Source: Clostridium sp. (GTDB taxonomy: Bacteria > Bacillota > Clostridia > Lachnospirales > Lachnospiraceae). From it: DNA of 37,350 nucleotides. Below are positions 5,462 through 24,925 of this stretch, in pieces. Each line of letters begins with the position of its first letter. The first letter of the stretch is position 1. The translations under genes and the position numbers were made by a program. Where the stretch lies: assembly GCA_023664605.1 (NCBI GenBank), contig JAMPFF010000027.1, positions 1-37,350 on the forward strand, given 5' to 3'. A model generated the notes under the pieces. The model saw only the letters and a program-made list of their open reading frames with translations. It was not told where the DNA came from and searched no databases.

Positions 5462-5528
5462 CGATGTTTGTGCCGACGTTATCAACGTCACACAAACTTG
5501 CGGTTCAACGTACAGCGTGCGCTGAACC
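5462..5528 (-). repeat. Two-hairpin leader element, copy D (before MATE gene)
   Basis: On the minus strand the first hairpin (5502-5528) has GGTTCA/TGAACC outer arms. The second (5462-5502) has AAGTTTGTG/CACAAACAT outer arms and an inner GACGTT-GAT-AACGTC stem. The arrangement and sequence match the copies at 7413, 20482, 22695 and 24833. The usual AGGYTGAG tail is missing here, and the MATE start lies 49 bases downstream. Confidence 0.65.
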
Positions 5529-5582
5529 TATTATATCAGAGGGGAATTTCCTCCGCAAAGAGTATATTAAAAAAATTAGTAC

Positions 5583-5611
5583 TTGACAATGCATAGTAGT
5601 AGGTTTAATCT
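5583..5611 (+). promoter_or_regulatory. Promoter of the PadR operon with a PadR-like half site
   Basis: TTGACA (5583-5588) and TAATCT (5606-5611) are 17 bases apart. The spacer contains ATGCATAGTAGTA, resembling the ATGCATAGTA-type operators bound by PadR regulators such as LmrR. Autoregulation by the downstream PadR protein is therefore likely. Confidence 0.65.
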
Positions 5612-5637
5612 AAGAGTATAAGAACGGGAAACGGGGG

Positions 5638-5967
5638 ATGAGGATGAATCCACAATTCAAAAAGGGAGTGCTGGAACTTATTGTTTTAGAATCCGTATGC
5701 CAGAAGGATATGTACGGCTATGAACTGGTGGAAGAAGTTTCGCGGGTCATTGACGTAAATGAGGGAACGATTTATCCGCTTTTGAAAAGGCTGACGAACG
5801 AGCGTTATTTTGAAACATATCTGCGGGAATCGTCCGAAGGGCCGCCGCGAAAATATTATCACATAACGGCCGCCGGGATATTATACCGGGATAGACTGGA
5901 AGCGGAGTGGGAAGAATTTCAGACGAGAGTGAACGCGTTTTTAAAGGGGAGGGAGCAGCATGAATAA
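5638..5967 (+). CDS. PadR family transcriptional regulator
   Basis: A 109-residue winged-helix regulator of the PadR subfamily 2 (short form). FKKGVLELIVLESVCQKDMYGYELVEEV is the first helix pair and recognition region; GTIYPLLKRLTNERYFETYL and GPPRKYYHITAAG form the wing, all typical. A second possible start is ATG 5644, which sits six bases after GGGGG. The gene overlaps the next one by eight bases. In Firmicutes, PadR genes are very often followed by a HAAS/DUF1700 membrane protein, as here, and respond to envelope stress or toxic compounds; that functional statement is family knowledge, not visible here. Confidence 0.93.
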   Translation: MRMNPQFKKGVLELIVLESVCQKDMYGYELVEEVSRVIDVNEGTIYPLLKRLTNERYFETYLRESSEGPPRKYYHITAAGILYRDRLEAEWEEFQTRVNAFLKGREQHE

Positions 5968-6811
5968 AGAAGCATTTCTTGAAAAGCTTAAGGAATATCT
6001 TGGTATTTTGGAAGACGGAGAGCAGCAGGATATTCTGGAAGAGTATGCGCAGCATATTGATATGAAAATGCAGAAAGGGTTGAGCGAAGAAGAAGCGATT
6101 CAGGATTTTGGCCCTATGGAGGAACTGGCAGAGCAGATTCTGGAAGCATATCACGTAAAACCGCAGTTTTCCGGGGAAAGAAATTCCATCGGTTTTACAA
6201 AAACAGAGACGGCCGGCACGGATGAAGAAGCAGACAGGCCTCTTCCCAAAGCGTTTGCATGGCTAAAAGAGAAAGCGGCCGAGATAAGCCGCGGCATTAA
6301 AAATGTATTTTCCAAGATAGGAAAAAAATGCCGCGCATTCGGCAGATGGTGCAGCAAACCTTTTGGGAAAGATAAGGCTGTGAATGATATTACGGAAGAA
6401 TGGGCAAAGGAGCAAAAAACAAAAGAGATGGGAAAAGGAATCAAAGGTATTTTAAAAACGATAGAAAATGGGATTGTAACATTATGCAGGGCATGTTGTT
6501 TATTCTGTGTTTGGTGCCTGAAATGGATTTGGAACCTCGGATGGCTGATGTTTTCCATACTTTGCGCCCTTATGGCGATGATTGTCTTAATGGGACTGGG
6601 CGCGGTGTTGGTTTTCCTGTTCCAGGGATATCCGTTTTATGGTATTTTTGTCCTCTGCCTGGGCGGTATGCTGTGTTTCGGCGCATTGGCGGGCGGTGCG
6701 TTCACCCTTTTAATCAGAAAAAAGAGTAAAAGCATTGAAAACAAAGATAATACGGATGGAATCAATAAAGGGGAAACAGAAAGAACGGACGGGGAGGTGC
6801 AGTATGAATAA
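5960..6811 (+). CDS. HAAS/DUF1700 domain membrane protein
   Basis: A 283-residue protein. Residues 1-70 match the HAAS/DUF1700 module (NKEAFLEKLKEYLGILEDGE, then EEYAQHIDMKMQKGLSEEEA and FGPMEELAEQIL), a helical domain that pairs with PadR regulators. A basic linker of about 100 residues follows, then three hydrophobic segments in about 175-255 and a charged tail. The ATG lies inside the end of padR, preceded by GGGGAGGGAG, so the two are translationally coupled. It probably acts as a membrane partner of the PadR regulator; a direct interaction is inferred from the family. Confidence 0.87.
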   Translation: MNKEAFLEKLKEYLGILEDGEQQDILEEYAQHIDMKMQKGLSEEEAIQDFGPMEELAEQILEAYHVKPQFSGERNSIGFTKTETAGTDEEADRPLPKAFAWLKEKAAEISRGIKNVFSKIGKKCRAFGRWCSKPFGKDKAVNDITEEWAKEQKTKEMGKGIKGILKTIENGIVTLCRACCLFCVWCLKWIWNLGWLMFSILCALMAMIVLMGLGAVLVFLFQGYPFYGIFVLCLGGMLCFGALAGGAFTLLIRKKSKSIENKDNTDGINKGETERTDGEVQYE

Positions 6812-7319
6812 ATTGCAGAAAATATTACTGATTGTGTTTTGTTTGGGCGTTTTACTGTGCGGGATAGGAAGTGGCGTCGCTTTTACGGAGTTTGGCGCAC
6901 TCAGCTACGGCGGCAGGCAGATTTTAGGAGAGCCGGATATGCGGACGGAGAGTTTTGATGTGGAATTTAAAGAAGGAAAAAAGCTGCAGGGAATTTCAGG
7001 TATGCGCGGGCGGCAGACCGGTTTCCAAACAGATGACAGTGTTCCGGAAAATACCGTTCGCTTCAGCGTGACTTATAATGCGGAAAATGTCACGATGCCA
7101 TACGCATACTGGGATGAAGAAACCGACCGGATTTTTCTTTCCTGCGAGTGGAGCGGAACGCACGATGATTTGGAATACATGATGGAAGCGAAAGATGTGC
7201 TTTTGCAAAATTTAAAAGAGGGGAAACTGGTTTCTTTCGATGTGGCGGGCATAGAAGAAGTGACTATATCAGTCAATCCTGAAACGCTGGAAAACATTTG
7301 GATGCCGGGAGTATTGTGA
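6804..7319 (+). CDS. Small membrane-anchored or exported protein of the PadR operon
   Basis: A 171-residue protein with one N-terminal hydrophobic segment (KILLIVFCLGVLLCGIGSGVAF, about residues 6-27) and an otherwise soluble, beta-rich extracytoplasmic part. The position after PadR and HAAS suggests the DUF4097/putative adhesin-like group often found in such operons, but I see no decisive motif. I put the start at 6804, which has GGGAGG seven bases upstream and overlaps the end of the previous gene; the frame is open further upstream to 6735 but that part reads through the HAAS gene. Function unknown. Confidence 0.8.
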   Translation: MNKLQKILLIVFCLGVLLCGIGSGVAFTEFGALSYGGRQILGEPDMRTESFDVEFKEGKKLQGISGMRGRQTGFQTDDSVPENTVRFSVTYNAENVTMPYAYWDEETDRIFLSCEWSGTHDDLEYMMEAKDVLLQNLKEGKLVSFDVAGIEEVTISVNPETLENIWMPGVL

Positions 7320-7334
7320 TTCATGGATGATACA

Positions 7335-7366
7335 AAAAAGATGCAAAAATGATGCAAATATGATGC
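7335..7366 (+). repeat. Short GATGCAAA-type iterons
   Basis: Three adjacent near-copies of an 11-base unit (AAAAGATGC, AAAAATGATGC, AAATATGATGC) lie between the PadR operon and the LRR lipoprotein gene. They could be regulator binding sites or simply low-complexity sequence. Confidence 0.4.
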
Positions 7367-7412
7367 ACACTCATGTTATCCTGAGTAAGTCTATAAGATT
7401 TCTGGATAATTT

Positions 7413-7472
7413 GCAAAGTTTGTGCCGGCGTCGATAGCGCTGTGGCAGCAAACTTGCAGGCTGAGGAAAGGC
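7413..7472 (+). repeat. Two-hairpin leader element, copy A (before LRR lipoprotein)
   Basis: Only the second hairpin is clear here (7413-7457): outer arms GCAAAGTTTG and CAAACTTGC, inner TGCC/GGCA and GCG/CGC pairs. The conserved tail AGGCTGAGGAAAGG (7458-7471) follows and doubles as the ribosome binding site. The similarity with copy B (22695) goes on into the start codons (ATGGTTATAAAAATG versus ATGGGTATAGAAATG). Confidence 0.7.
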
Positions 7473-9548
7473 ATGGTTATAAAAATGAAGAAATACCAAG
7501 CATTGTCATGCGCCGTAGCGTGCAGTCTGCTTTTGTGCGCGTGTGGGCGGGAAACGGCATCATCACAGGAAACGGAAGCGACATCCATGTCAGATTTGCC
7601 GGACTTATCCGGCGCCGCGAACGCCGATGAAGTGTTGGAACTGCTCATAGAAGACGAGGGTTTTCGCGAATGTGTGCATTACAAGCTTGGTATTGAGGAA
7701 GATGATTTGGCTGATGAAGTGCTGCGAAAGCTGGAAAACTGCGAGAGCATTACATTAGAAGAAGCGCCATCCGGCAATGCAATTTATTCGTTGGAGGCGC
7801 TGTCTCTTATGCCAAATTTGACATGGTTCGGAATCAATATCAACAGCTGGGATGATTCCGCTATCGAGGATTTTACGCCTATTGCGCAGTTGTCCAAGCT
7901 GGAAGAGCTTTATATCAATGATGAAAGAGACGAGCAGATTGACCTTTCTTTTTTAGGGCAGATGCACACGATTACGGCGCTTTTTTTGCCGAATTGCAAG
8001 ATGGCGGACTTTTCTTTTTTGGAAGAAATGCCGCAGCTGCAACGCCTGTCTTTCTATGAAACGCCCATAGAAGACTTGGCGGTATTGGAGAAACTTCCGA
8101 ATCTGGTTCAACTGTCTCTTTGCGGCAATGAGAATGTAAAAAATATAGAGGCGGTGGGAACGCTTACCGAAATGCAGGATTTGAACATACAGCGCTGCGG
8201 CATTAAGGATATCAGCTTTTTAAGCGGCTCAACAAAACTTCGGAACGTGAGTTTGAATGGAAATTTCATCACGGACATTACGCCGCTTGCGGGGCTTCAT
8301 AAGCTAGAACATCTGGAGTTATCCGATAACGGAATCAGTGATATTTCCGCGCTGGAAAATTTGAGTAGCCTGTATAACTTGGCGTTAGATGACAATGAGA
8401 TTCAGGATATTTCCGCACTTGCAAAACTGCCTCATCTGAATGAAGTGAGACTTTTCAACAACCTGATTGAAGACTTTACGCCCCTTGCGGATAAGGAAGA
8501 ATTGATGTATGCGGCGGTATTTGGCAATCCTGCTAAAAGTTTGGAGCCGATTTTTATGGTGCCGATGCTTCGGTATACGACGACCGGAGGCGTATCGGAA
8601 GAGGAAAAGGCGTTTGTCACGGATTGGCTTGCCGAGCATTATCCTGGGGTTGAACAGTTTTTTACATGTAATGATTTTATAGAGGGCGACTTGAATCATG
8701 ACGGACGCCGGGATATCGCTTTTGTCGCGACAAGCGAGGCTTTTGATGATAAGGGGGATTATTTAAGAACCCTCCGTATGTTTATTTTATTACAGCAAGA
8801 GGACGGTTCGTGGAAGGAGCTGGCGAATACACCGGAGATTGCCTCCTCCGAAATGGGCGGGACGAAGGGCGACCTTTACTACGGCGCGTTTATACAGGAA
8901 GGCTATCTGCTCATCCAAGAGGGATGGGGCGGCAAATCCGGTTGGGAACAGAATTCCATTTATGAATACCATAACGGAACGCTTCGTCTGGCGAGCAGGA
9001 TAACGGTCGATGATGATTATTACGCGGTTGGCTATGATGTGAACATACAGGATGAAAGGAGCGGAGAATGGCAGCATTATGCGATTGCCTGGGATGGAAA
9101 CCGCAATGTCCGCGTGGACATAGAAGATACGGAGCATCCGGCGCATAAAGCCTTTCCGGACATTAGTCTTTATCCCCACTCTTATTATATTTATGAAAAG
9201 GAAGAACCCCGCATTACATCCTCGGAAGCGCTTGACCGTGTTTTGGAAGAGGTATTGGAGGATGCGTTTTTAGCCGTAAAAGAAGAACTGCCTTATGCCG
9301 AGTGGCAGAAAGAGGGATATGAGCGTTTGGTGTGCGTGGAACTTCCTGATTATTATTATACCCTGCCCGAAACGCGGCATGAAGCGGACGGCGATTCGCC
9401 GGAATGGGAGGGAGATTATCTTTATTATGACCGTATTACACGGGAGAACGGAGAACTCTCCTGCCATCTCATCCGTTTGGTACAGGAAGATGGAGTAAAG
9501 ACATTTTGGTTAAATGACGAGACAGGGGAAATAGAAAGGAGCGAATAA
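7473..9548 (+). CDS. Leucine-rich-repeat lipoprotein
   Basis: A 691-residue predicted surface lipoprotein. The N-terminus MVIKMKKYQALSCAVACSLL runs into LLCACG, a good lipobox with the cysteine near residue 24. About residues 80-330 hold internalin-like leucine-rich repeats of about 22 residues, for example LHKLEHLELSDNGISDISAL and SSLYNLALDDNEIQDISALA. After these comes a GDLNHDGRRDIAFV block, which looks like an FG-GAP/calcium-binding loop, and a long acidic, aromatic-rich C-terminal region. Starts at 7473 or 7485 are both possible; GAGGAAAGG is next to 7473. It probably binds something at the cell surface; the partner is unknown. It stands alone, with a structured leader element. Confidence 0.85.
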   Translation: MVIKMKKYQALSCAVACSLLLCACGRETASSQETEATSMSDLPDLSGAANADEVLELLIEDEGFRECVHYKLGIEEDDLADEVLRKLENCESITLEEAPSGNAIYSLEALSLMPNLTWFGININSWDDSAIEDFTPIAQLSKLEELYINDERDEQIDLSFLGQMHTITALFLPNCKMADFSFLEEMPQLQRLSFYETPIEDLAVLEKLPNLVQLSLCGNENVKNIEAVGTLTEMQDLNIQRCGIKDISFLSGSTKLRNVSLNGNFITDITPLAGLHKLEHLELSDNGISDISALENLSSLYNLALDDNEIQDISALAKLPHLNEVRLFNNLIEDFTPLADKEELMYAAVFGNPAKSLEPIFMVPMLRYTTTGGVSEEEKAFVTDWLAEHYPGVEQFFTCNDFIEGDLNHDGRRDIAFVATSEAFDDKGDYLRTLRMFILLQQEDGSWKELANTPEIASSEMGGTKGDLYYGAFIQEGYLLIQEGWGGKSGWEQNSIYEYHNGTLRLASRITVDDDYYAVGYDVNIQDERSGEWQHYAIAWDGNRNVRVDIEDTEHPAHKAFPDISLYPHSYYIYEKEEPRITSSEALDRVLEEVLEDAFLAVKEELPYAEWQKEGYERLVCVELPDYYYTLPETRHEADGDSPEWEGDYLYYDRITRENGELSCHLIRLVQEDGVKTFWLNDETGEIERSE

Positions 9549-9659
9549 ATGTTTTCAATTTTATCCACTCCCGGCTAAATCAATTCAGCGCTTTTTTGCC
9601 AACTGCAAGTCAATAGTATCATAAATTAACAATGAGAAGATGGGAATTTATCCAATTCA

Positions 9660-9695
9660 TTGATTATTCGTCCAAAATGTGGCATAATATGGACG
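9660..9695 (+). promoter_or_regulatory. Promoter and operator of the fic gene
   Basis: TTGATT (9660-9665) and CATAAT (9683-9688) are spaced by 17 bases. CGTCCA (9669-9674) and TGGACG (9690-9695) form a 6-bp inverted repeat around the -10 box, and a further CGGACG lies near 9711, so a repressor may act here. The rest of 9549-9659 shows no feature. Confidence 0.6.
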
Positions 9696-9753
9696 AAAGG
9701 ATAATAAAACCGGACGATAAACGGATAAAGAAATGAGGCGGCAGGGGTGCATT

Positions 9754-10821
9754 ATGCGTAAATTTGATTATATGAAGCTGCAAAACGAGATGTGGGATAC
9801 AGAGATTGTTTCCTATATTGCCAAAATACATGAATGCAAAGGGAGGCAGGAGTTGTTTGTGAGGCAGAAGCCGATGGAACTGGAACGCCTTGTTGAAATT
9901 GCGCGCATCCAGAGTACGGAGGCTTCCAATAAAATCGAAGGAATCGTTACTACCGGCACAAGAATAAAACAGTTGATGGCGGAAAAGACAGCGCCGCGAA
10001 ACAGAGATGAGAGTGAAATCATGGGGTATCGGGATGTGTTAAACACAATCCATGAAAGCCATGACTTTATCCCCATAAGACCGTCTTATATTTTACAACT
10101 GCACAGAGATTTGTTAAAGCGGGCGGGGCTTTCTTACGGCGGGCATTTTAAGAATGTACAGAATTATATTAACGAAACAAGGGCGGATGGAACGCAGGTT
10201 GTCCGTTTTATTCCGGTGCCGCCTTATGAAACGGAAGAGGCAATCGGCGCTATCTGTTCAAACTATGAAAAGGCAGTATTGATGGAGACGATTGACCCGC
10301 TGATTTTAGTGCCTGTATTTATATGCGATTTTTTGTGCATTCATCCGTTTAATGACGGGAACGGCAGAATGAGTCGGCTTCTGACGCTGCTTTTGCTTTA
10401 TCAGAACGGATATGAAGTAGGAAAATATATCAGTATAGAGAAGCAGATAGAAAACACAAAGGATATTTATTATGATGCGCTGGAACGGGCGGATTACGGC
10501 TGGCATGAGGAGACGAATGACCCGACGCCGTTTATCCGGTATATGCTAAAGGTAATTCTGGCATGCTATACGGAATTTGAAGAGCGTGTAGGAATGTTAA
10601 GCGTTGGACGTACTAAAAGCAGAGCATATGATATTGTTAAGGCTTATGTAACGGAAAAAATCGGTAAGTTTACGGGAGCGGAAGTGATTGCCGCCTGCCC
10701 CGGCGCGGGGCGTTCTGCGATTCTTGCTGCATTAAAAAAGCTGACGGAAGAAAAAGAGATTGTCAAATGTGGCTCCGGAAAAAATACTTATTATGTGCGA
10801 AGCGATGTTTTTGAAGAATAG
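9754..10821 (+). CDS. Fic family protein (AMP transferase type)
   Basis: A 355-residue Fic protein, an enzyme class that usually attaches AMP from ATP to Ser/Thr/Tyr hydroxyls of target proteins. Residues 197-208 (HPFNDGNGRMSR) are the complete catalytic motif. Residues 58-63 (SNKIEG) match the (S/T)xxxE(G/N) inhibitory helix, placing it in the self-inhibited class with the inhibitory motif N-terminal. The C-terminal 90 residues, after FIRYMLK, look like a winged helix (TGAEVIAACPGAGRSAILAA, LTEEKEIVKCGS), which may bind DNA. I chose ATG 9754 because GGCAGGGG lies upstream; ATG 9733 is an alternative. No separate antitoxin is adjacent, consistent with an intramolecular inhibitor. Target unknown. 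Confidence 0.92.
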   Translation: MRKFDYMKLQNEMWDTEIVSYIAKIHECKGRQELFVRQKPMELERLVEIARIQSTEASNKIEGIVTTGTRIKQLMAEKTAPRNRDESEIMGYRDVLNTIHESHDFIPIRPSYILQLHRDLLKRAGLSYGGHFKNVQNYINETRADGTQVVRFIPVPPYETEEAIGAICSNYEKAVLMETIDPLILVPVFICDFLCIHPFNDGNGRMSRLLTLLLLYQNGYEVGKYISIEKQIENTKDIYYDALERADYGWHEETNDPTPFIRYMLKVILACYTEFEERVGMLSVGRTKSRAYDIVKAYVTEKIGKFTGAEVIAACPGAGRSAILAALKKLTEEKEIVKCGSGKNTYYVRSDVFEE

Positions 10822-10879
10822 ATGAATTAATATAATGAACCTCACCTCGGATATATACAGTATTACGCTATTCGAGAAT

Positions 10880-10942
10880 CACGGTAAACGCATGAAAAAA
10901 ATCGACAGAAAATCTGCCGATTTTTTTCATGCGTTTACCGTG
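10880..10942. terminator. Long perfect hairpin after fic
   Basis: A 63-base palindrome with arms of about 30 bases and one mismatch, beginning CACGGTAAACGCATG and ending CATGCGTTTACCGTG, with a three-base loop near 10910. The stem itself contains runs of seven A and seven T. It may terminate transcription in both directions, but there is no T tract after the stem, so it could also be a remnant of a palindromic repeat. The 63-codon reading frame across it is not a credible gene. Confidence 0.6.
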
Positions 10943-11036
10943 GCTTTCTTGACTTTTCTCATTTTTGAAATGACAGATTTTCTGTGCTTTTTATTTTCAC
11001 GGAAACAAAATGGGCAAATCACATAATATAAAAACA

Positions 11037-11065
11037 TTGACAACACGTATTAATGCGCATAAAAT
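11037..11065 (+). promoter_or_regulatory. Promoter of hicAB
   Basis: TTGACA (11037-11042) and TAAAAT (11060-11065) have an exact 17-base spacer. The -10 region lies inside the first of three repeats, so repressor binding would block it. Confidence 0.75.
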
Positions 11066-11145
11066 AGGGGAAAGAATACACATTAATACGCATAAGATGA
11101 AGAGGAAAGCATATAATAATACACATAGAGAAAGAGGCGGTTAAT
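11046..11145 (+). repeat. Three 33-34-bp tandem repeats in the hicAB control region
   Basis: Units begin at 11049, 11082 and 11116, with cores ATTAATGCGCATAA, ATTAATACGCATAA and ATAATACACATAG, each followed by a purine-rich GGGGAAAG/GAGGAAAG/AGAAAGAGG segment. CGTATTAATG (11046-11055) and CATTAATACG (11081-11090) form a perfect 10-bp inverted repeat. Together these look like operator sites for the ribbon-helix-helix domain of HicB. The last unit supplies the hicA ribosome binding site. Confidence 0.6.
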
Positions 11146-11147
11146 GA

Positions 11148-11333: not shown

Positions 11334-11373
11334 CCCGAAATAATTTCAGGGTTTGGAAATGGAGGATGTTGAA

Positions 11374-11772: not shown

Positions 11773-11797
11773 CAAACGCCCCGCAAATCACTATAGT
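11769..11797 (+). promoter_or_regulatory. Promoter of the T-box/valS operon
   Basis: TTGACA (11769-11774), a 17-base spacer and TATAGT (11792-11797). The -35 box overlaps the hicB stop codon. Confidence 0.8.
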
Positions 11798-11802
11798 AGA
11801 AA

Positions 11803-12078
11803 TAATTAGATAATCAGAAAAAGGTAACGACAAAGAGGAGTACATGACGTCTGCCGCCAGAGAGAACAGCTATTTGCTGAAAGGCTGTTTCGGAAAAGAT
11901 TCATGGAAGGTAGCTTTGGAACCGGAATGCCGAACCAGGATAAGAAGATACCGCAGTAAGCATTCCCGCCCTATCCCCGTTAGCGGATAAGATTCTGACA
12001 GGAATCGTTAAGTGATAAACGAAGGTGGTACCGCGTGATAATACGCCCTTTGCTGACAATGTCGGCAGAGGGCTTTTT
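11803..12078 (+). promoter_or_regulatory. T-box leader of valS
   Basis: A tRNA-sensing leader that lets valS be read when uncharged tRNA-Val is abundant. The antiterminator T-box AAGGTGGTACCGCG is at 12022-12035. The AGAGA loop of stem I is near 11861-11866. A GTA triplet at 11910-11912, in a GAAGGTAGC context, is a plausible valine specifier codon. The terminator follows at 12045-12078. The specifier is inferred by position and by the downstream gene; stem I was not folded in full. Confidence 0.9.
12045..12078 (+). terminator. T-box terminator
   Basis: GCCCTTTGCTGAC (12045-12057), a loop of AAT and GTCGGCAGAGGGC (12061-12073) form a 13-pair stem with two G-U pairs, then TTTTT. It is mutually exclusive with the T-box antiterminator. 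Confidence 0.9.
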
Positions 12079-12137
12079 CATGATATAAATAGGCAGGGTT
12101 TGAGAGTCAAAAGCATTTATCTAATAAAGTTAAATTT

Positions 12138-18146: not shown

Positions 18147-19571
18147 ATGAAATGTTACAATTGCGGATGCGACTTGTCCGGACACGATTTTTGTACCGGC
18201 TGCGGCGCCGATGTATCCCTTTACAAGAAGATTATATATATATCCAACCGTTTTTATAACGACGGTCTGGAGAAAGCGAATGTCAGGGATTTAACCGGCG
18301 CGATTTCAAGTCTGCGTCAGAGTTTGAAATTTGATAAAAATAATGTGGAAGCAAGAAATTTATTAGGGTTGGTTTATTTTGAGACCGGAGAAGTGGTGGC
18401 GGCTCTTAGCGAATGGGTTATCAGTAAGAACCTGCGGCCGAAGAAAAACATAGCGGACGATTACATCGATATGATACAGACCAATCCGACAAGGTTAGAC
18501 ACTATCAATCAGACAATTAAAAAATACAACCAGGCGCTGACCTACTGTAATCAGGACAGCCCTGACCTTGCGATTATACAGTTAAAAAAGGTGCTGTCGC
18601 TAAATCCGAAATTTATTCGGGCGCATCAGCTTCTGGCGCTTCTTTATATTAATGGGGAAGAATGGGAAAAAGCTAAAAGGGAACTGACAAAATGCGTGCA
18701 GATTGACACGAACAATACGGTTACGCTGCGCTATCTGAAAGAAGTTGACGAAATGCTTCTGCCGGAAGAGGGCGTCAAGACCAACAATAAGAAGAAAAAA
18801 CGCTCGGAGGATGTTGTCAAATACCAAAGCGGTAACGAAACCATTATTCAGCCCGTCAATATCAAGGAGGGCAAGGGCGTAGGTTCCTTATTGAATCTGG
18901 GAGTCGGCCTTCTTATCGGTATTGCGATTGCCGTATGTCTGATTCTTCCGGCGCGGATTCAGACGGCGAAGGCGGGGATTAACGATGATTTGCGTCTGGT
19001 AAGCGAGCAGTTGGATGCCAAGAACGCGACGATTGACGAGCTGGAACAGCAGTTAAATGAACTGCGGGATGCCAAGAGCGCGTTGGAGCAGGATTTGGAT
19101 GCCTATATGGGGAAAGACAACAATCTTCCGGCTTATGATATTCTGCTGAAAGCCGCGGATGCCTACTTAACGAATGCGGAAGACGTGATTACCGTTGCCG
19201 ATTATCTTGAGGAAATCAATGCCATGGAGGAAGAATCGGAAGATCCGCAGGAGGAACGTTCCGAAGCCTATGAGAAGTTGTATAACACGATTCTGGCATT
19301 GATAGGGCCGACGGTGGCGGAGTCCTATTATGACGAGGGATATGAAGCATACAAGCAGGAAAATTACCAGGAGGCCATTCCTAACTTAGAACGGGCGTAT
19401 CAGTACGACGAGGCGAACGGGGAAGCGCTTTACTATCTGGCGAATTCTTATAACAGCGTAGGGCGCGGCGAAGACGCTATCGAAGCATATAAACTGGTGA
19501 TTGAGTTATTCCCCGGAACGGTGAAAGCAACAAAATCCGCTACGTTTCTGGCGGAGTTAGAGAGCGAATAG
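18147..19571 (+). CDS. Zinc-ribbon, TPR and coiled-coil membrane protein
   Basis: A 474-residue protein. It starts with a four-cysteine zinc ribbon (Cys3, Cys6, Cys16, Cys19). Tetratricopeptide repeats fill about residues 35-200 (AISSLRQSLKFDKNNVEARN, LAIIQLKKVLSLNPKFIRAH). A transmembrane segment lies at about 250-268 (LLNLGVGLLIGIAIAVCLI). A coiled coil follows, and two more TPR units lie near the C-terminus (YEAYKQENYQEAIPNLERAY). It probably scaffolds proteins at the membrane, with soluble domains on both sides. Partner unknown. It is the last gene of the valS-fapA-folC group, and a terminator follows. Confidence 0.85.
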   Translation: MKCYNCGCDLSGHDFCTGCGADVSLYKKIIYISNRFYNDGLEKANVRDLTGAISSLRQSLKFDKNNVEARNLLGLVYFETGEVVAALSEWVISKNLRPKKNIADDYIDMIQTNPTRLDTINQTIKKYNQALTYCNQDSPDLAIIQLKKVLSLNPKFIRAHQLLALLYINGEEWEKAKRELTKCVQIDTNNTVTLRYLKEVDEMLLPEEGVKTNNKKKKRSEDVVKYQSGNETIIQPVNIKEGKGVGSLLNLGVGLLIGIAIAVCLILPARIQTAKAGINDDLRLVSEQLDAKNATIDELEQQLNELRDAKSALEQDLDAYMGKDNNLPAYDILLKAADAYLTNAEDVITVADYLEEINAMEEESEDPQEERSEAYEKLYNTILALIGPTVAESYYDEGYEAYKQENYQEAIPNLERAYQYDEANGEALYYLANSYNSVGRGEDAIEAYKLVIELFPGTVKATKSATFLAELESE

Positions 19572-19606
19572 AATACCGACAGGTTATATCAATATGATTA
19601 CCATAC

Positions 19607-19645
19607 AAAAGAGAACAGGAAGATTTCTTGTTCTCTTTTTTTGTG
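19607..19645 (+). terminator. Terminator after the TPR gene
   Basis: AAAAGAGAACAGGAA and TTCTTGTTCTCTTTT form a long stem ending in a T-rich run. It separates the folC-TPR group from the spoIIA operon. Confidence 0.85.
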
Positions 19646-19679
19646 TAAGAATCTAATATTTTAACGAAAGGGGAAGACA

Positions 19680-19988
19680 ATGGAAGAGGAATTTAAAGTA
19701 ATTGACAACTATCTAATGATAAGGATGCCGGATGAAATCGACCATCATCACTCGGTTGACATAAGTAAAAGAGCCGACCGCTATATCATGGAATCCAAAG
19801 TCGGAAACGTTGTTTTTGATTTTGAAAGGACAACCTTTATGGATAGTTCGGGAATCGGCATTATTGTGGGAAGATATAAGAAAATATCCTGTTTTGGCGG
19901 CAAGGTGTTTGCGATTAACGTAGGAAACCGCGTGCGCAGGATTTTGATGCTATCAGGGTTACATAATATAGTAGAAATCATGGAGTGA
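19680..19988 (+). CDS. spoIIAA: Anti-sigma F factor antagonist
   Basis: A 102-residue STAS-domain protein that frees sigma F by binding SpoIIAB when unphosphorylated, in the forespore. The phosphorylation site is visible in FMDSSGIGIIVGRYK (Ser56/Ser57, corresponding to Ser58 of Bacillus subtilis), and the KVFAINVGNRVRRILMLSGL tail is typical. The ATG is preceded by AAAGGGG. It is first of the spoIIAA-spoIIAB-sigF operon. Confidence 0.97.
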   Translation: MEEEFKVIDNYLMIRMPDEIDHHHSVDISKRADRYIMESKVGNVVFDFERTTFMDSSGIGIIVGRYKKISCFGGKVFAINVGNRVRRILMLSGLHNIVEIME

Positions 19989-20006
19989 AACGGAAAGGAG
20001 ATATAG

Positions 20007-20486
20007 ATGATAGAGATTGTAAACTGGAATCAGAATACACAGATAAAGAATGAAATGAGGCTGGAATTTCGGGCTGTTTCCGATAATGAGTCGTTTGCCA
20101 GAACGGCGGTAGCGGCCTTTGTGACGCAGCTTAATCCGACGTTGGAAGAAATTTCGGATGTTAAGACCGCAGTTTCGGAAGCCGTGACAAATGCCATTAT
20201 CCATGGATACGACGGGGAGAAAAATGAAGATAATAAGGTGTGGATTCACTGTCTGATAAAAAATGATGTGCTGGAAGTGGAAATACGGGATATGGGAGTC
20301 GGTATTGAAAATGTGGAAAAAGCAATGGAGCCGCTCTATACGACGAAGCCGGAACTGGAACGCTCCGGCATGGGATTTTCCTTTATGGAGGCTTTTATGG
20401 ACGATTTGGAGGTCGTTTCCGAAGTGGGGCAGGGAACGACGGTACATATGGTGAAAAAACTGGGAACAAGCCCATGGATAAGTTGA
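20007..20486 (+). CDS. spoIIAB: Anti-sigma F factor (serine kinase)
   Basis: A 159-residue GHKL-fold kinase that both holds sigma F inactive and phosphorylates SpoIIAA. The N box is [19 protein letters not shown], the G1 box is [15 protein letters not shown], and the G2 region is [16 protein letters not shown]. It is slightly longer than the Bacillus protein (146). AAAGGAG lies before the ATG. The stop codon lies inside the first hairpin of the leader element that precedes sigF. Confidence 0.97.
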
Positions 20487-20571
20487 AAATTATCAATTTT
20501 CAGCTGCAAATTTGCGCATGATGCGCAAATTCGCGTGTTGTGAAATGGATAAGGGTTGAGCAAGAAAGGAG
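20482..20571 (+). repeat. Two-hairpin leader element, copy E (before sigF)
   Basis: First hairpin GTTGAAAAT/ATTTTCAGC (20482-20504), overlapping the spoIIAB stop. Second hairpin about 20506-20534, arms AAATTTGCGCA and TGCGCAAATT. A tail follows with GGGTTGAGCAAGAAAGGAG (20553-20571), corresponding to the AGGYTGAGGAAAGG of other copies but separated by about 20 extra bases. The layout equals copies B and C, with base changes on both sides of the stems. Confidence 0.65.
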
Positions 20572-20585
20572 TCTTGAATTGGTTT

Positions 20586-21377
20586 ATGGAAGAAACTGCC
20601 GTATTGATTGAACGTTCACAGGCAGGAGATAAAAAAGCAAGAGAGAGACTGATAGAGGAGAATCTGGGGCTGGTGCGGCATATCGTAAAACGTTTTCTGG
20701 ACAGGGGATATGATGCGGAGGATTTGTTCCAAATCGGCTGTATAGGACTGATGAAAGCGATAGATAAGTTTGACTTACATTTCGATGTAAAGTTATCAAC
20801 GTACGCCGTGCCAATGATACAAGGTGAAATCAAGCGGTTTTTGCGGGATGACGGCATGGTGAAAGTAAGCCGCACATTAAAAGAAAACGGGTGGAAGATA
20901 AAGCAGGCGGCGGAGAAACTTTCCCACGCCTATGGACGGGAAGCTACGTTATCGGAGTTATCACAACAAACGGGGCTTAGTGTGGAAGATATTGTATTGG
21001 CGTTAGATGCCAATGTGGAGGTGGAATCCATTTATAAGTCGGTCTATCAGTCGGACGGCAATGAAATCTATCTGGTAGACCAGGTGGTCGGAGAAGCCGG
21101 CGGCGTAGGGCATTCCGTATTATCCGGCGGCATATGCGCTCAAACAAACGTCTGCGAAGATACGGAAAAAGAAAGACTTTTGAATCATATGCTGTTACAG
21201 CAGCTTATGGAGGGATTGGAGGAAAGGGAAAGGGAACTCATCCGCCTGCGCTATTTTCAGGATAAGACGCAGATGGAAGTAGCAAAAGAAATGGGTATCA
21301 GCCAGGTGCAGGTCAGCCGCATGGAGAAAAAAATCCTGCTGCGGATGCGGGAAGAGGTGTGCGCGTGTCCCGGATAG
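20586..21377 (+). CDS. sigF: RNA polymerase sigma-F factor
   Basis: A 263-residue sporulation sigma factor that directs early forespore transcription. Region 2 is clear (LVRHIVKRFLDRGYDAEDLF, QIGCIGLMKAIDKFD, LSTYAVPMIQGEIKRFLRDD), as is region 3 (ATLSELSQQTGLSVEDI) and region 4 (KTQMEVAKEMGISQVQVSRM). The start is uncertain: ATG 20586 gives MEETAVLIERSQAGDKKA, which fits the family; TTG at 20574 and 20556 are in frame. AAAGGAG at 20565-20571 is 14 bases before 20586 but only two before the TTG at 20574. Between region 3 and 4 there is an unusual Gly/Ser/Cys insertion (GEAGGVGHSVLSGGICAQTN). Confidence 0.96.
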   Translation: MEETAVLIERSQAGDKKARERLIEENLGLVRHIVKRFLDRGYDAEDLFQIGCIGLMKAIDKFDLHFDVKLSTYAVPMIQGEIKRFLRDDGMVKVSRTLKENGWKIKQAAEKLSHAYGREATLSELSQQTGLSVEDIVLALDANVEVESIYKSVYQSDGNEIYLVDQVVGEAGGVGHSVLSGGICAQTNVCEDTEKERLLNHMLLQQLMEGLEERERELIRLRYFQDKTQMEVAKEMGISQVQVSRMEKKILLRMREEVCACPG

Positions 21378-21406
21378 CCGCGTTGGAAAGCAAAATTTGT
21401 ATTTCC

Positions 21407-21435
21407 TTGTAAAAAAAGGGAATGAGGTATATAAT
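21407..21435 (+). promoter_or_regulatory. Promoter of the aldo/keto reductase gene
   Basis: TTGTAA (21407-21412), 17-base spacer, TATAAT (21430-21435). Confidence 0.75.
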
Positions 21436-21489
21436 AAAAAGGACACCGAAAATTTTGTAAGCAGAAGAAAAGGATATGGTTAGAAAAAA

Positions 21490-22668
21490 ATGAATTATCG
21501 CACAGATAAATACGGGAATAGAATTTCGGTTCTGGGTTATGGTTGTATGCGTTTTACGCAGAGTGGCGGAAAGATTGATTTGGACAAAGCAGAACAGGAA
21601 ATTCTGGAAGCTTACCGCGCCGGTGTCAATTATTTCGATACAGCTTATATATATCCCGGGAGCGAGGATGCGCTTGGAAAGATACTGGAGAAAAACCAGA
21701 TTCGGGATAAAGTGAGTATTGCAACAAAACTGCCGCATTACCTGATTAAGAAATCTGACAGTATAGAGAAGTACTTTTTAGAACAGTTAAAAAGACTGCG
21801 TACGGACTATGTGGACTACTATTTGATGCACATGCTGACAGATGTTAAGACATGGGATAAATTAAAAGAACTTGGCATTTTGGAATGGCTCGAAGATAAG
21901 AAAAAAAGCGGAGCCATCCGGCAGGTTGGTTTTTCCTATCATGGCAATTCAGATATGTTCTGTGAACTGATAGATGCCTATGACTGGGACTTCTGCCAGA
22001 TACAGTACAATTATCTGGACGAGCATTCGCAGGCGGGGCGTAAGGGTCTTATGTATGCCGCCTCGAAAAAGATACCGGTTATTATAATGGAACCTCTAAG
22101 GGGCGGCAAACTGGTCGGTCAGTTACCGGAAGAAGCGAAACGCCTGTTTGCAGAATATCCGATAAAGCGCAGTCCGGCAGAATGGGCATTCCGCTGGCTC
22201 TGGAACCAGCCGGAGGTCACTTGTGTGTTATCCGGCATGAATTCTTTGGAAATGGTAAAGGAGAATGTCAGGACAGCTGCAGAAGCGCAGATTGGAGAAT
22301 TTACAGAGGCTGATGAGAAGCTGTTGGGCGATGTAGTACGAGCTATCAATGCAAAAGTAAAAGTCGGCTGTACGGGATGCCGCTATTGTATGCCGTGTCC
22401 GAAAAATGTGGATATACCGGAGACGTTTGCGGCTTATAACAGACGCTATACCGACGGGAAAAGAGCGGCGGTTATAGAATATTTTATGTGTACGGCGCTG
22501 CGCAAAGACTCTTCGGCAGCCTCAAACTGCATGGAATGCGGAAAATGCGAGGCGCACTGTCCGCAGCATATCGAAATCAGAAAAGAACTAAAGAACGCCC
22601 GCAAGGAACTGGAAGGACCGTTATATAGGATAGCGCGTAAGGCGGTGCAGCTTTTGAAACTGTACTGA
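21490..22668 (+). CDS. Aldo/keto reductase with C-terminal 4Fe-4S ferredoxin domain
   Basis: A 392-residue protein. Residues 1-280 form the (beta/alpha)8 aldo/keto reductase barrel, with the catalytic tetrad visible as Asp50, Tyr55, Lys80 and His114 (YFDTAYIYPGSE, ATKLPH, YYLMHM). From about 290 on, two cysteine clusters appear: CTGCRYCMPCPKNVDIP and CMECGKCEAHCPQHIEI, as in ferredoxin-like binding of [4Fe-4S] clusters. This fused type is common in anaerobes, where it may couple carbonyl reduction to ferredoxin-type electron carriers; the substrate is unknown. It stands alone with a good promoter, and the leader element copy B follows its stop. Confidence 0.94.
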   Translation: MNYRTDKYGNRISVLGYGCMRFTQSGGKIDLDKAEQEILEAYRAGVNYFDTAYIYPGSEDALGKILEKNQIRDKVSIATKLPHYLIKKSDSIEKYFLEQLKRLRTDYVDYYLMHMLTDVKTWDKLKELGILEWLEDKKKSGAIRQVGFSYHGNSDMFCELIDAYDWDFCQIQYNYLDEHSQAGRKGLMYAASKKIPVIIMEPLRGGKLVGQLPEEAKRLFAEYPIKRSPAEWAFRWLWNQPEVTCVLSGMNSLEMVKENVRTAAEAQIGEFTEADEKLLGDVVRAINAKVKVGCTGCRYCMPCPKNVDIPETFAAYNRRYTDGKRAAVIEYFMCTALRKDSSAASNCMECGKCEAHCPQHIEIRKELKNARKELEGPLYRIARKAVQLLKLY

Positions 22669-22694
22669 AAGAGAATATAGGAAGAGGTGAAAAG

Positions 22695-22802
22695 GTTGAA
22701 AGAATAAATTCTTTCAACCACGAGTTTGTGTTGACGTTTGCAACGCCAGACACAAACATCGCAGGCTGAGAAAGGAGCATGGGTATAGAAATGGAAAAAT
22801 AA
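22695..22802 (+). repeat. Two-hairpin leader element, copy B, followed by a 7-codon frame
   Basis: First hairpin GTTGAAAGAAT/ATTCTTTCAAC (22695-22718). Second hairpin (22721-22761), outer arms CGAGTTTGTGT/ACACAAACATCG and inner CGTT/AACG. The tail AGGCTGAGAAAGGAG follows at 22763-22777. The tail leads into ATG GGT ATA GAA ATG GAA AAA TAA (22779-22802), so no real gene follows. The start-codon region resembles that of copy A, which does serve a gene. Confidence 0.7.
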
Positions 22803-22836
22803 TCTGCTTTTGAAACATGAAGATGGAAAAACGAGG

Positions 22837-22872
22837 AAACATTTGTGTGATTGCGTAGAATGTTTGTTTTTT
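22837..22872 (+). terminator. Possible terminator downstream of copy B
   Basis: AAACATT (22837-22843) and AATGTTT (22859-22865) bracket a 15-base loop and are followed by GTTTTTTG. The stem is short, so this is a moderate call. Confidence 0.45.
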
Positions 22873-22985
22873 GTCATGTTGCCAAAAGTGGGTTATGTTT
22901 CTGGACTTCCCTCTTTTTTTCGTGTTATTTTATCATAATTTTTAAAATAGTTTACAATAAAAAGAGCAGGAATCGGGTAAGAGAC

Positions 22986-23030
22986 ATGATGCAGAATCGT
23001 TTGGCAGCAGACGGTTCTTTTTTTGCGTAG
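22986..23030 (+). CDS. 14-residue leader peptide of the ABC-F attenuator
   Basis: ATG ATG CAG AAT CGT TTG GCA GCA GAC GGT ... TTT GCG TAG encodes MMQNRLAADGSFFA. The frame is laid directly over the terminator hairpin at 22993-23024. A ribosome stalled by a drug on this frame would keep the hairpin from forming. Short leader frames of this type are known before ABC-F and other ribosome-protection genes; here it is inferred from layout. The ribosome binding site is weak (GGAATCGGG, 22969-22977 region). Confidence 0.55.
   Translation: MMQNRLAADGSFFA
22993..23024 (+). terminator. Attenuator hairpin before the ABC-F gene
   Basis: AGAATCGT (22993-23000) pairs with ACGGTTCT (23011-23018) and is followed by TTTTTT. 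A second similar stem, GAATC/GGTTC, lies at about 23043-23058, close before the gene, and could compete as an anti-terminator. Confidence 0.65.
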
Positions 23031-23083
23031 TCATAGGCGACGGAATCGGCAGCGGTTCTGTATGGAAAGAAAGGCGGGTATCT

Positions 23084-24601
23084 ATGGCGAAAATCAATGT
23101 ATCGAATCTTACTTTCTGCTATGAGGGCAGTTTTGACAATATTTTTGAAAACGTGTCTTTTTCTGTTGATACGGACTGGAAACTTGGGTTTATCGGAAGA
23201 AACGGCAAGGGAAAGACGACTTTTTTAAATCTTTTAATGGGAAAATACGAGTATCACGGCAGCATACAGACCTCCGTGTCATTTGACTATTTTCCCTACC
23301 GGATAAGCGACGGGCAGATGAAAAGCTGCGCCGCCGATTTTTACGACGAGCTTGCGCCGAATTTAGAGTCGTGGAGAATCTTGATGGAAGTGGAAAAATT
23401 GGGAATGGACGCGGAGCTTCTATACCGTCCGTTTGAGACGCTTAGCCACGGGGAACGCACCAGAGTGATGCTTGCCGTTTTATTTTCCAGAGATAATTAT
23501 TTCTTATTAATCGACGAGCCGACCAATCATCTGGATAGAGAGTCGCGGGAGATAATCAAGGAATATCTGCGAAAAAAGCAGGGCTTTTTGCTGGTATCGC
23601 ATGACAGGGATTTGCTGGACGCCTGCGTGGACCATATTTTAGTGTTAAACAGGGTGTCCATCGAGGTGCAGAAAGGCAATTTTTCCTCCTGGTGGGAGAA
23701 TAAGAGCCGCATGGACGCCTTTCATGAGGCGGAAAATGAAAAGCACCGTAAAGAAATAGGCAAGCTGCAGGAAGCGGCAAGACGCGCCGACGGATGGGCG
23801 CAGAAAAATGAAAGAAACAAGATTGGATACGACCCGATTAAGGAACATGCTCATGGCATTGACCGGGGTTATATTGGAGCGCGGACAAAGGCGATGCAAA
23901 AGCGCGTTAAACAGATGCAGGTAAGAATGGCGCATGAAATCGAGGAAAAAGAGGGGCTTTTGCAGGATATTGAAAATCCGGCGGATTTAAAAATCATGCC
24001 GCTTGTCCATCATAAGGACGTCCTTATCCGGGCGCAGAAATACGGACTTTCCTACGGGGAACACAGCGTTTTGCAGGAGTTTGATTTTACGCTCCAGCAA
24101 GGCGAACGTGTGCTTTTACGCGGGGCAAACGGCAGCGGAAAGTCCAGTTTTATTAAAGCGGTCTTACGAAGATGCGGGGCGCAGGAGACGGAAAATACTA
24201 TGGCAGAAAGCGGTATTTTGCAGACCGCAAGCGGGCTTATTATATCTTATGTAAACCAAGATGCTTCATACTTGCAAGGAAATTTAAAGGAGTTCTGCCT
24301 GCGGGAGAGTCTGGATGAGAGCCTGCTAAAAGCCATTCTGCGCCAGCTTGATTTGGAGCGCGTCCAGTTTGGCAAACGGATGGAGGAATATTCGGAGGGG
24401 CAGAAGAAAAAGGTATTGATTGCCGCCAGTCTGCTAAAGCGCGCGCATCTGTATATCTGGGATGAGCCGCTAAATTATATCGACGTTTTTTCCCGGATGC
24501 AGATAGAAGAACTTATCCTGCGCTATCAGCCGACGATGTTATTGGTGGAGCATGACGTGCGTTTCCAGGAGAAAGTGGCGACAAGGGTGGTGGAGTTTTG
24601 A
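23084..24601 (+). CDS. ABC-F ribosomal protection protein, Lsa-like
   Basis: A 505-residue soluble ABC protein with two nucleotide-binding domains and no membrane segment; ABC-F proteins of this type bind the ribosome and displace antibiotics. Domain 1 has Walker A GRNGKGKTT, signature LSHGE and Walker B LLIDEPTNHLD. Domain 2 has GANGSGKSS, YSEGQ and the degenerate Walker B IWDEPLNYID. The linker of about 75 residues (about 210-290) is helical and basic. The start MAKINVSNLTFCYEGSFDNI is typical of Lsa proteins, which give resistance to lincosamides, streptogramin A and pleuromutilins. The resistance spectrum of this one cannot be told. The leader suggests antibiotic-induced attenuation. Confidence 0.93.
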   Translation: MAKINVSNLTFCYEGSFDNIFENVSFSVDTDWKLGFIGRNGKGKTTFLNLLMGKYEYHGSIQTSVSFDYFPYRISDGQMKSCAADFYDELAPNLESWRILMEVEKLGMDAELLYRPFETLSHGERTRVMLAVLFSRDNYFLLIDEPTNHLDRESREIIKEYLRKKQGFLLVSHDRDLLDACVDHILVLNRVSIEVQKGNFSSWWENKSRMDAFHEAENEKHRKEIGKLQEAARRADGWAQKNERNKIGYDPIKEHAHGIDRGYIGARTKAMQKRVKQMQVRMAHEIEEKEGLLQDIENPADLKIMPLVHHKDVLIRAQKYGLSYGEHSVLQEFDFTLQQGERVLLRGANGSGKSSFIKAVLRRCGAQETENTMAESGILQTASGLIISYVNQDASYLQGNLKEFCLRESLDESLLKAILRQLDLERVQFGKRMEEYSEGQKKKVLIAASLLKRAHLYIWDEPLNYIDVFSRMQIEELILRYQPTMLLVEHDVRFQEKVATRVVEF

Positions 24602-24694
24602 TATTTTTCCAATTTTCCAGTTGAATTATAAGTCATTTTCATGTAAAATAATAATAATTGGATAAGCTTCATGATACAAAGTGTGAAAGGATGG

Positions 24695-24832
24695 ATGAGC
24701 AGTATGGAAAGTGGAGCAGGATTTTTATTATTAGCAGGCGGTCTGGTAGTAGTTTTGATACCCGTTGTCATTTCGGTAGTATCAGCGGTTGTGTCCGGTA
24801 TAGCGGCGGCTGTGGATGATGAGGAAGACTAA
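24695..24832 (+). CDS. 45-residue single-span membrane protein
   Basis: A small frame: MSSMESGAGF, then a hydrophobic stretch of about 30 residues rich in Val, Leu, Ile, Gly and Ala (FLLLAGGLVVVLIPVVISVV), then DDEED at the C-terminus. GAAAGG precedes the ATG; ATG 24704 is another possible start. The pattern suggests a small integral membrane protein with an acidic tail. The stop is followed immediately by element copy C. I do not recognise a family. Confidence 0.6.
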   Translation: MSSMESGAGFLLLAGGLVVVLIPVVISVVSAVVSGIAAAVDDEED

Positions 24833-24918
24833 GTTGAAAGAATTGCATTCTTTCAACTGCAAGTTTGTACCAACGCTTATAGCGTTCGGACACATAAACT
24901 CGCAGGTTGAGGAAGGGG
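24833..24918 (+). repeat. Two-hairpin leader element, copy C (before the 60-residue protein)
   Basis: First hairpin GTTGAAAGAAT-TGC-ATTCTTTCAAC (24833-24857). Second hairpin (24859-24903), arms GCAAGTTTGT/ACATAAACTCGC and inner AACGC/GCGTT. The tail AGGTTGAGGAAGGGG (24904-24918) is the ribosome binding site of the gene starting at 24926. The first hairpin is identical in arms to copy B. Confidence 0.72.
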
Positions 24919-24925
24919 TTTGATT

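Follow-up and report, generated by a model that had tools for sequence, protein, structure and literature searches.

A dispersed two-hairpin element in Clostridium sp. most likely carries its own Shine-Dalgarno sequence into the leaders of unrelated genes

Five leader elements lie in the window, i.e. the whole stretch of 37,350 nt that was analysed (contig JAMPFF010000027.1 of the Clostridium sp. assembly GCA_023664605.1), and are members of a family that is most likely a non-autonomous mobile element bringing its own Shine-Dalgarno (SD) sequence, not its own start codon, since it splits the native SD from the start codon at 11 of 17 empty sites and its own 3' end gives an SD. We thus regard as probable a small mobile element family that enters near gene starts in sense direction, the SD of its tail replacing the native one.

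All five window places were recovered by the covariance model R1 in a whole-genome search, confirming as real the five copies claimed in the first-pass annotation (Table 1). As R1 was trained on 16 sequences that include neither the copy at 7396 nor the one at 20481, the E-values of these two copies are independent of training. The sixth window match at E<=1 is only a reverse-strand echo of copy 1 (5466-5497, E 0.42).

Table 1. Layout of the five copies in the window, with R1 matches, hairpins and tails.
Feature	Position	Strand	Basis and remarks
Copy 1 (before MATE gene), R1 match	5429-5528	minus	63.8 bits, E 2.4e-10
Copy 1, hairpin 1	5502-5528	minus	inverted arms 12 nt, 83%
Copy 1, hairpin 2	5462-5500	minus	arms GTTTGTG/CACAAAC; no recognisable SD tail after
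Copy 2 (before LRR lipoprotein), R1 match	7396-7489	plus	41.0 bits, E 2.6e-5
Copy 2, hairpin 2 only, without hairpin 1	7413-7457	plus	arms AAGTTTG/CAAACTT
Copy 2, SD tail GCAGGCTGAGGAAAGGCATGGTTAT	7455-7481	plus	sequence; tail pattern match 7462-7480; host-type ATG at 7485
Copy 3 (between spoIIAB and sigF), R1 match	20481-20567	plus	48.3 bits, E 6.4e-7
Copy 3, hairpin 1	20481-20505	plus	arms 11 nt, 91%
Copy 3, hairpin 2, diverged sequence	20506-20534	plus	arms 14 nt, 93%
Copy 3, diverged tail with AGAAAGGAG	20535-20575	plus	sequence; likely sigF ATG at 20586
Copy 4 (no gene after), R1 match	22694-22795	plus	103.3 bits, E 4.7e-19
Copy 4, hairpin 1	22694-22719	plus	arms 12 nt, 100%
Copy 4, hairpin 2	22720-22762	plus	arm analysis; fold z -6.06 for 22690-22780
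Copy 4, SD tail CGCAGGCTGAGAAAGGAGCATGGGTAT	22760-22786	plus	sequence; tail pattern match 22767-22786
Copy 5 (before small protein), R1 match	24832-24936	plus	89.5 bits, E 5.2e-16
Copy 5, hairpin 1	24832-24858	plus	arms 12 nt, 100%
Copy 5, hairpin 2	24860-24903	plus	arm analysis; fold z -3.69 for 24830-24920
Copy 5, SD tail CGCAGGTTGAGGAAGGGGTTTGATT	24901-24925	plus	sequence; ATG at 24926

The plan of two hairpins followed by an AGGYTGAG tail, proposed for all five copies, holds in copies 4 and 5 and fails in the LRR copy, which has no first hairpin; the MATE copy has both hairpins, but its AGGYTGAG tail is not recognisable, and the sigF copy keeps the plan with a second hairpin of different sequence and a diverged tail. 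Hairpin 1 of copy 3 already begins within the last codons of the preceding frame in the ORF list (stop 20484-20486). The left tip of copy 5 lies at TA/A from the end of its upstream frame. Copy 4 indeed precedes no gene, being followed by ATGGGTATAGAAATGGAAAAATAA with a frame that stops at once. Compared with shuffled sequences, folding of single copies was clearly better in three (z -6.06, -3.69 and -3.10) and weak in two (z -1.92 and -0.67, the latter for a stretch lacking five bases of hairpin 1).

With E<0.01 as threshold, the R1 search of this genome gave 71 copies, including the 16 sequences that trained R1, so that the expected further copies exist. Within the genus, R1 matches occur in 18 of the 25 genomes searched, compared to none of the 16 genomes from other families; a tiny hairpin-rich element is present in dozens of copies across a group of gut bacteria. 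Both hairpins are maintained by covariation: alignment A7 contains 236 two-sided changes, exceeding the shuffle control (64.9), and 92.0% paired cells vs 79.8% in shuffles, counts that lean towards the model's structure because A7 was fitted to it.

From these copies we would describe a non-autonomous element of about 80-110 nt, whose left tip, usually preceded by A and in many cases by TA, would be hairpin 1, followed by hairpin 2 and the tail CGCAGGYTGAG plus SD, which would usually meet TA at the right junction. As to a target-site duplication, L282, L372 and L385 would be compatible with TA or T at either flank, and L371 with no duplication or AT. By eye, no terminal inverted repeats were seen in the fetched copies, whose left ends read GGTTGAAA.. 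or GTGTGAAA.. vs right ends ..GGTTAT or ..GGGGGAT. A gene-bearing long version was also looked for in the fetched loci and not seen there; a pattern search gave 38 distinct left tips, all with hairpin 2 downstream, including two that the scan had flagged and that have it on reading.

As the first-pass annotation had claimed, the host genes are unrelated, and they are often housekeeping genes. In 57 of 72 copies a long frame starts at the element on its own strand and in 15 of 72 on the opposite strand, with 11% and 16%, respectively, in control windows; the opposite-strand value is background, implying that some copies do not precede any gene. We analysed the left flanks of 154 copies, a set that includes orthologues from close genomes and a few weak or reverse-strand matches, and of which 107 have an intact left tip. 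TA stands directly before the tip in 56 of these 107 (control mean 7.4, maximum 14), and the flank contains an SD 5-mer in 26 (control mean 7.3, maximum 13). For copies from other genomes the SD count is 20/50 (control mean 4.2, maximum 9), whereas the intact copies of the own genome, with 6/57, do not exceed their control (mean 3.1, maximum 6); a first test in the own genome had given 8/76 copies vs 85/1140 control windows (7.5%). The missing excess in the own genome may reflect decay in an older set. The mobiliser would apparently favour SD-TA targets.

Comparison of the close genomes G016 and G055 revealed 17 empty sites among 40 loci, with 7 of 20 G016 loci being empty in G055 and 10 of 20 G055 loci being empty in G016. 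The other 23 loci comprise 10 that are filled in both genomes (counting L377, which runs off its contig), two remnants, one that is replaced by unrelated sequence and 10 that are not comparable. Every exact empty site stems from this single pair and, as the pair was compared without an outgroup, precise loss is possible in principle at each presence/absence site; we infer that presence means insertion. At 11 of the 17 empty sites the start codon is preceded, at 5-15 nt, by an SD-like match, and the element went in either directly behind this match or in the gap that separates it from the start codon, the aligned insertion point lying 1 or 3 nt inside the match at two of these 11. Scoring was done by script for 11 of the 17 empty sites and by eye for six; in L283 the script's best SD-like match, AGAAA, is tied with a GGAGG seen by eye. 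Among the sites judged by eye the native SD is lost or replaced in L290, L388 and L390, the insertion is elsewhere in L286 and L376, and L289 is ambiguous. The inserted stretches are about 80-100 nt long and thus move the native SD to a distance of roughly 85-115 nt from the start codon.

These sites suggest how the element spreads. New copies would enter leaders in sense direction, very often between SD and start codon, which should impair translation, and the tail would provide a second SD that is suitably spaced from the start codon of the host gene. We propose that insertion is tolerated even before essential genes because the 3' end of the element supplies a usable SD, the host genes probably still being readable thanks to this spare SD. 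With time the native SD left behind would decay, in many cases together with the hairpins, while the SD of the element would remain as the ribosome site of the gene. Judged from sequence, the tail SD may drive translation and explain the tolerance of insertions, and the hairpin structure may serve mobility.

The 3' end of the element supplies SD sequence, with a tail consensus that includes AAAGGAGCATGGTTAT and others, whereas translation appears to begin at the host gene's own start codon. GlmS begins with Met-Cys; an ATG of the element itself as glmS start was rejected as it is out of frame. The dispersed element with a translation start of its own, as proposed earlier, is backed by the empty sites and largely right, except that only the SD part is brought. 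Likewise, a ribosome site on each copy was too broad a claim: many copies have an SD tail, but in topA, dnaG and others the hairpins are followed by the native SD.

Tail and hairpins can also occur apart, and the tail may instead be a genus-wide translation-start context (AAAGG-CATGG-N-ATG) that is targeted or captured by an element contributing hairpins only. The context is found without hairpins in clpX leaders of relatives (AAAGGCATGG..ATG) and, for a gyrB-like gene, in four of nine leaders (L265, L266, L271 and L272), none of the nine having an R1 match; a gyrB copy shared with G063 and G065 was discarded as a candidate since the genes there are a second gyrB-like gene with tail context only. 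Moreover, three different tail types follow the same core, and the new insertion L373 went into a tail-like context, between AGAAAGGTATGG and TATTAAAATG. We nevertheless consider this reading unlikely, as hairpins and tail arrive as one insertion at L282, L371, L372 and L374, the tandem copy L041, where the tail is not beside a gene, and window copy 4 have a tail with no gene after it, and few genomes of other genera contain the tail pattern (18 of 148, with 1-2 matches each, compared to 25 matches in this genome).

If the element is mobile, a Y1 (HUH) transposase might move it as a palindromic element inserting beside a short fixed sequence, similar to REP/RAYT or IS200/IS605 derivatives. Hairpins near both ends without terminal inverted repeats and the TA or A at the left junction agree with such a mechanism, which is improbable given that PF01797 had no match in the heavy carriers G000, G016, G055, G059 and G061 and did match in G005, G011 and G021, genomes without R1 or tail matches. 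PF01797 also occurs in the carriers G051, G010, G063 and G060, giving 7 of 15 genomes in total, and its absence from the heavy carriers is not final because draft genomes can lose multicopy transposase genes.

Copying through RNA by target-primed reverse transcription, with the gap between SD and start as target, would make the element a bacterial SINE-like element. The structured RNA in sense direction is in line with this idea, as is the 3' end, which is fixed in the 15 of 17 empty-site copies with tail type I; furthermore, the L385 copy lacks hairpin 1 and is joined exactly at the target, and the L388 and L390 copies are joined at short shared sequences. However, a deletion in the partner genome may have left L388 and L390 as remnants, and selection for the SD tail with loss of hairpins could also leave such 3' ends. 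The SINE-like element is a candidate only, and a rather improbable one. If it were true, the ribosome-binding region itself would be the target and the captured SD the price of tolerance, defining a class of mobile elements by translation-start sites, and dozens of genes, essential ones included, would have been re-equipped with element-borne ribosome sites.

For glmS, clpX, nrdR, glpK, dnaG, alaS and topA we searched the leaders of orthologues in relatives, using the best-matching loci only (for glmS, the best 30 of 58), and 0 of 70 had an R1 match at the leader, which does not support the broad-acting RNA regulator suggested earlier. In the window Rfam detected only a T-box elsewhere, with no family over the element, and for five loci it gave three weak matches at E<=1, none at gathering score; the only one over an element was TD-2 (29.9 bits vs 48.7) on the opposite strand. 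A known RNA family was therefore discarded, in agreement with the earlier failure to match any described one. A phage or plasmid origin was rejected as well, there being no match in a phage or plasmid collection, and of three viral-contig patterns two gave nothing and the third a single contig. A conserved cis-acting RNA regulator of a large regulon, be it a riboswitch, a thermosensor or a leader that binds a protein, with hairpins controlling access to the neighbouring SD, would fit the covarying hairpins next to an SD and the leader position and orientation, but is very unlikely in view of the element-free orthologous leaders of seven genes, the 17 of 40 loci that differ between two close genomes, the unrelated host genes, the copies with absent or reduced hairpins (G055 loci L281 and L293; tail-only sites) and the lack of a matching Rfam family.

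That mobile elements bring promoters to genes is known. In one bacterial lineage, the present element seems to bring a ribosome-binding site and to have become the ribosome site of many genes, among them housekeeping ones. The close genomes provide natural matched pairs, with the native SD in one and the element SD in the other, and bear on the tolerance of insertions between SD and start codon and on ribosome-site turnover. In the open-licence papers searched we found no report of such an element.

The closest known systems are start-associated sequences of mycobacteriophages and MITE/REP repeats. REP elements are short hairpins in many intergenic copies that are associated with RAYT (Y1) transposases. 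The present element shares the hairpins and the many intergenic copies, but a Y1 gene was not found in five heavy carriers (PF01797; draft genomes), and we know of no REP that is placed at gene starts with an SD. SINE-type retroelements are short, structured, non-coding repeats with a fixed 3' end and an occasional 5'-shortened copy, features that recur here, with one clean 5'-shortened copy (L385); in contrast, the present element has no A-tail and a junction duplication of about zero to two bases.

According to the parts of the source available to us, SAS/ESAS of Cluster K mycobacteriophages are SD-containing repeats at translation starts before unrelated genes. Almost all are oriented like the gene, about half have an inverted repeat directly in front of them, and an upstream stop codon may fall inside (PMC3203893). 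The SAS has 13 bp, GGGATAGGAGCCC, and 11-19 copies per phage genome; according to the authors, the extended sites show conservation in front of the same gene families, and the left and right arms do not support RNA pairing (PMC3203893). The present element resembles them as an SD-containing repeat at gene starts in gene orientation (57/72 same-strand frames). It differs in that its arms covary, its sites vary between close genomes, with no empty sites or insertion described for SAS/ESAS in those parts, and conservation before orthologous genes is not seen here (0/70 leaders); by eye, GGGATAGGAGCCC is also unlike the tail consensus AAAGGAGCATGGTTAT and others.

Pneumococcal BOX, RUP and SPRITE elements are, in the sections consulted, enriched between convergent genes (PMC3049150), opposite to where the present copies lie. 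MITEs have terminal inverted repeats, which were not seen in the present element, and the consulted part of the MITE review contains no mention of ribosome or Shine. They include elements with TA targets such as RUP of pneumococcus, and Correia elements carry promoters (PMC2229807, PMC10969869, as far as seen). Like MITEs and Correia elements the present element is small and non-coding, occurs in many copies and has TA at its junction, and, on the same partial sources, it parallels Correia elements as a mobile repeat that can feed an expression signal to the next gene, this signal being promoters in the Correia case.

The first-pass annotation had described a two-hairpin element recurring at five places in the window. 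We read and folded the sequence at these places, scanned it for inverted arms, and used the cleanest copy as BLAST query against the genome, resulting in 47 matches at E<=10. A covariance model (R1) with a hand-written structure was built from 16 aligned copies, and searching the genome with it (3.585 Mb, 78 contigs) gave 91 matches at E<=1 and 71 at E<0.01. All five window copies were recovered, two of them from outside the training set, confirming that they belong to one recurring element. The window's only Rfam match at gathering score is a T-box leader (99.6 bits).

We drew the plan of the element from a listing of 76 copies in this genome. The left tip is usually preceded by A, often by TA. 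The arms of hairpin 1 are GGTTGAAA../..TTTCAACC, GTGTGAAAAATAAATTTTTCACAC and others, those of hairpin 2 are GCGAGTTTGTG../..CACAAACATCGC with a variable inner portion, and some copies contain an additional small hairpin. Downstream of hairpin 2, CGCAGGYTGAG is followed by a Shine-Dalgarno (SD) tail, with three tail types (..AAAGGAGCATGGTTAT, ..AAGAATGGGGGAT and ..GGATATTGGCAGCATGGAGGAT). The covariation beyond chance that the first-pass annotation had asked for is present in A7, an alignment of 75 copies from several genomes: its 28 pairs contain 236 two-sided changes vs 64.9 in shuffles, 92.0% of cells are paired vs 79.8%, and the covariation score is 0.298 vs 0.116, all figures being biased towards the structure as A7 was fitted to it. 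None of 500 shuffles attained any of five measures, sliding the partner by 1-3 columns reduced pairing to 33-47%, and hairpin 1 taken alone has two-sided changes at 9/11 pairs. Five loci (L061, L072, L077, L079, L082) form a subfamily with an extra hairpin inserted (CATACAACAAAAAGCATGTGC..), the 5' part being missing in L077 and L082.

Coordinates and junctions of element copies and other features; for empty sites (loci lacking the element in the partner genome) the junction is the insertion as aligned.
Feature	Position	Strand	Left of junction	Right of junction
Cleanest copy, BLAST query	window 22694-22796			
Copy outside R1 training set	window 7396			
Copy outside R1 training set	window 20481			
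T-box leader	window 11818-12053	plus		
Tandem pair showing element ends directly	L041, ~1411-1586	minus	..GACATGGTTATTA	AGTTGAAAG..
Two tandem elements (nrdR leader) directly behind TTGACA..GATAATA-like promoter, the first without SD tail	L144, 1739-1917	minus		
Copy on viral contig	L421, 3425-3459	minus		
Empty site	L282		GGGAGGGCG	TAAAATGAG
Empty site	L371		GGGAGG	ATTTCTATGG
Empty site	L372		AATAGGG	GATTAGCATG
Empty site	L374		AAGGA	GGTTACTACTATG
Empty site	L385		AAAGGAGAG	TAAGATTATG

Of the first 72 of the 76 listed copies (four weak ones omitted), 57 have a long frame opening at the element on their own strand, against 11% of control windows, and 15 have one on the opposite strand, against 16%. 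Ten of the downstream products were checked against NCBIfam and all were confirmed (glmS, gyrB, cmk, thrS, dnaG, alaS, topA, ffh, ligA, lysS); rimM, nrdR, clpX, mutL, efp, sigF and more were named by eye from translations. In 48/76 copies a long upstream frame terminates close to the left tip, and in 15 of these 48 the stop codon starts exactly 2 bases before the element, TA and the element's first base forming the stop.

This genome carries the element at the leaders of glmS, clpX, nrdR, glpK, dnaG, alaS and topA, whereas the leaders of their orthologues in relatives, 70 in all (29, 9, 8, 5, 5, 9 and 5, respectively), gave no R1 match, the remaining matches within those loci falling off the leader. 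Exact element ends could be read in the close pair G016/G055 (flanks ~87-99% identical), where 7/20 G016 loci are empty in G055 and 10/20 G055 loci are empty in G016. At 11 of these 17 empty sites the element lies between the native SD, i.e. that of the host gene, and the start codon; the native SD is lost or replaced at three, one is ambiguous, and two insertions lie elsewhere, one behind a -10-like box and one within another repeat. Loss in one partner would also leave such pairs, but since native SD-to-start gaps remain at the empty sites, insertion appears the simpler reading of this two-genome comparison. Of 107 copies whose left tip is intact, 56 have TA directly before it (control mean 7.4) and 26 have an SD 5-mer in the adjacent upstream flank (7.3), with 20/50 in copies from other genomes (4.2) and 6/57 in this genome (control mean 3.1, maximum 6). 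A second multicopy repeat (..GCTACGGTTCAAACGCAGCGGTACAT / GATGCCAAAATACGGCATCTAAGTACCGG..) carries the element as passenger at L376, L377, L378, L380, L381 and L382 (G055); at L257, and at the site in G016 that corresponds to L376, the repeat occurs without it.

Matching 17 tails of this genome by pattern, we found a further ATG in 15, located 12 nt behind the first in 9/15 and in frame with it in 11/15. The two ATGs of glmS are out of frame and GlmS starts Met-Cys, indicating use of the host ATG; the element would thus supply the SD and not the start codon. At topA the native SD lies downstream of the hairpins. Contexts resembling AAAGGCATGG occur without hairpins in clpX leaders of relatives (L229, L231-L236, L245) and in 4/9 leaders of a gyrB-like gene (L265, L266, L271, L272); L250 has AGAAAGG only. 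These could be either old relics or a start context, which may be genus-wide, captured by the element.

No terminal inverted repeats were seen by eye at the ends of the copies, and the junctions are compatible with target duplications of ~0-2 bases. The new copy at L385 lacks hairpin 1 yet has an exact junction with its target, and the copies at L388 and L390 meet their targets in short stretches common to both. These cases hint at a copying process that begins at the 3' end; L388 and L390 may, alternatively, be deletions in the partner genome. A Y1 transposase had no match in the draft genomes of five heavy carriers (G000, G016, G055, G059, G061); it was found in carriers G051, G010, G063 and G060 and in three genomes where neither R1 nor the tail pattern matched.

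R1 was positive in 18/25 genomes of the genus, this one included, and in 0/16 from other families. The tail pattern occurs in 41/60 genomes of the genus (reversed control 3/60) and, with 1-2 matches each, in 18/148 of other genera of the family (control 1/148); a young consensus occurs in 33/60 of the genus. Named carriers have mostly Lachnospiraceae titles, COE1 and 0.1xD8-71 bearing no metagenome-assembly label. Phage and plasmid collections yielded no matching record, and one viral contig (IMGVR_UViG_3300035498_001876) carries a copy, which precedes a 576-aa frame starting MVIKM and is flanked by frames resembling, by eye, large serine recombinases.

In the open-licence literature we found no mobile element inserting between SD and start and supplying another SD. 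The start-associated sequences of Cluster K mycobacteriophages come closest in arrangement; they differ in size and host, are kept before the same genes and, unlike the element, have no support for RNA pairing (PMC3203893). Pneumococcal repeats differ in being over-represented between convergent genes (PMC3049150). Novelty would be larger if RNA copying were proved. We rate the element as belonging with small non-autonomous mobile repeats: MITEs have inverted ends, unlike the element, but RUP with its TA targets and Correia with its promoters are nearest in kind (PMC2229807, PMC10969869).
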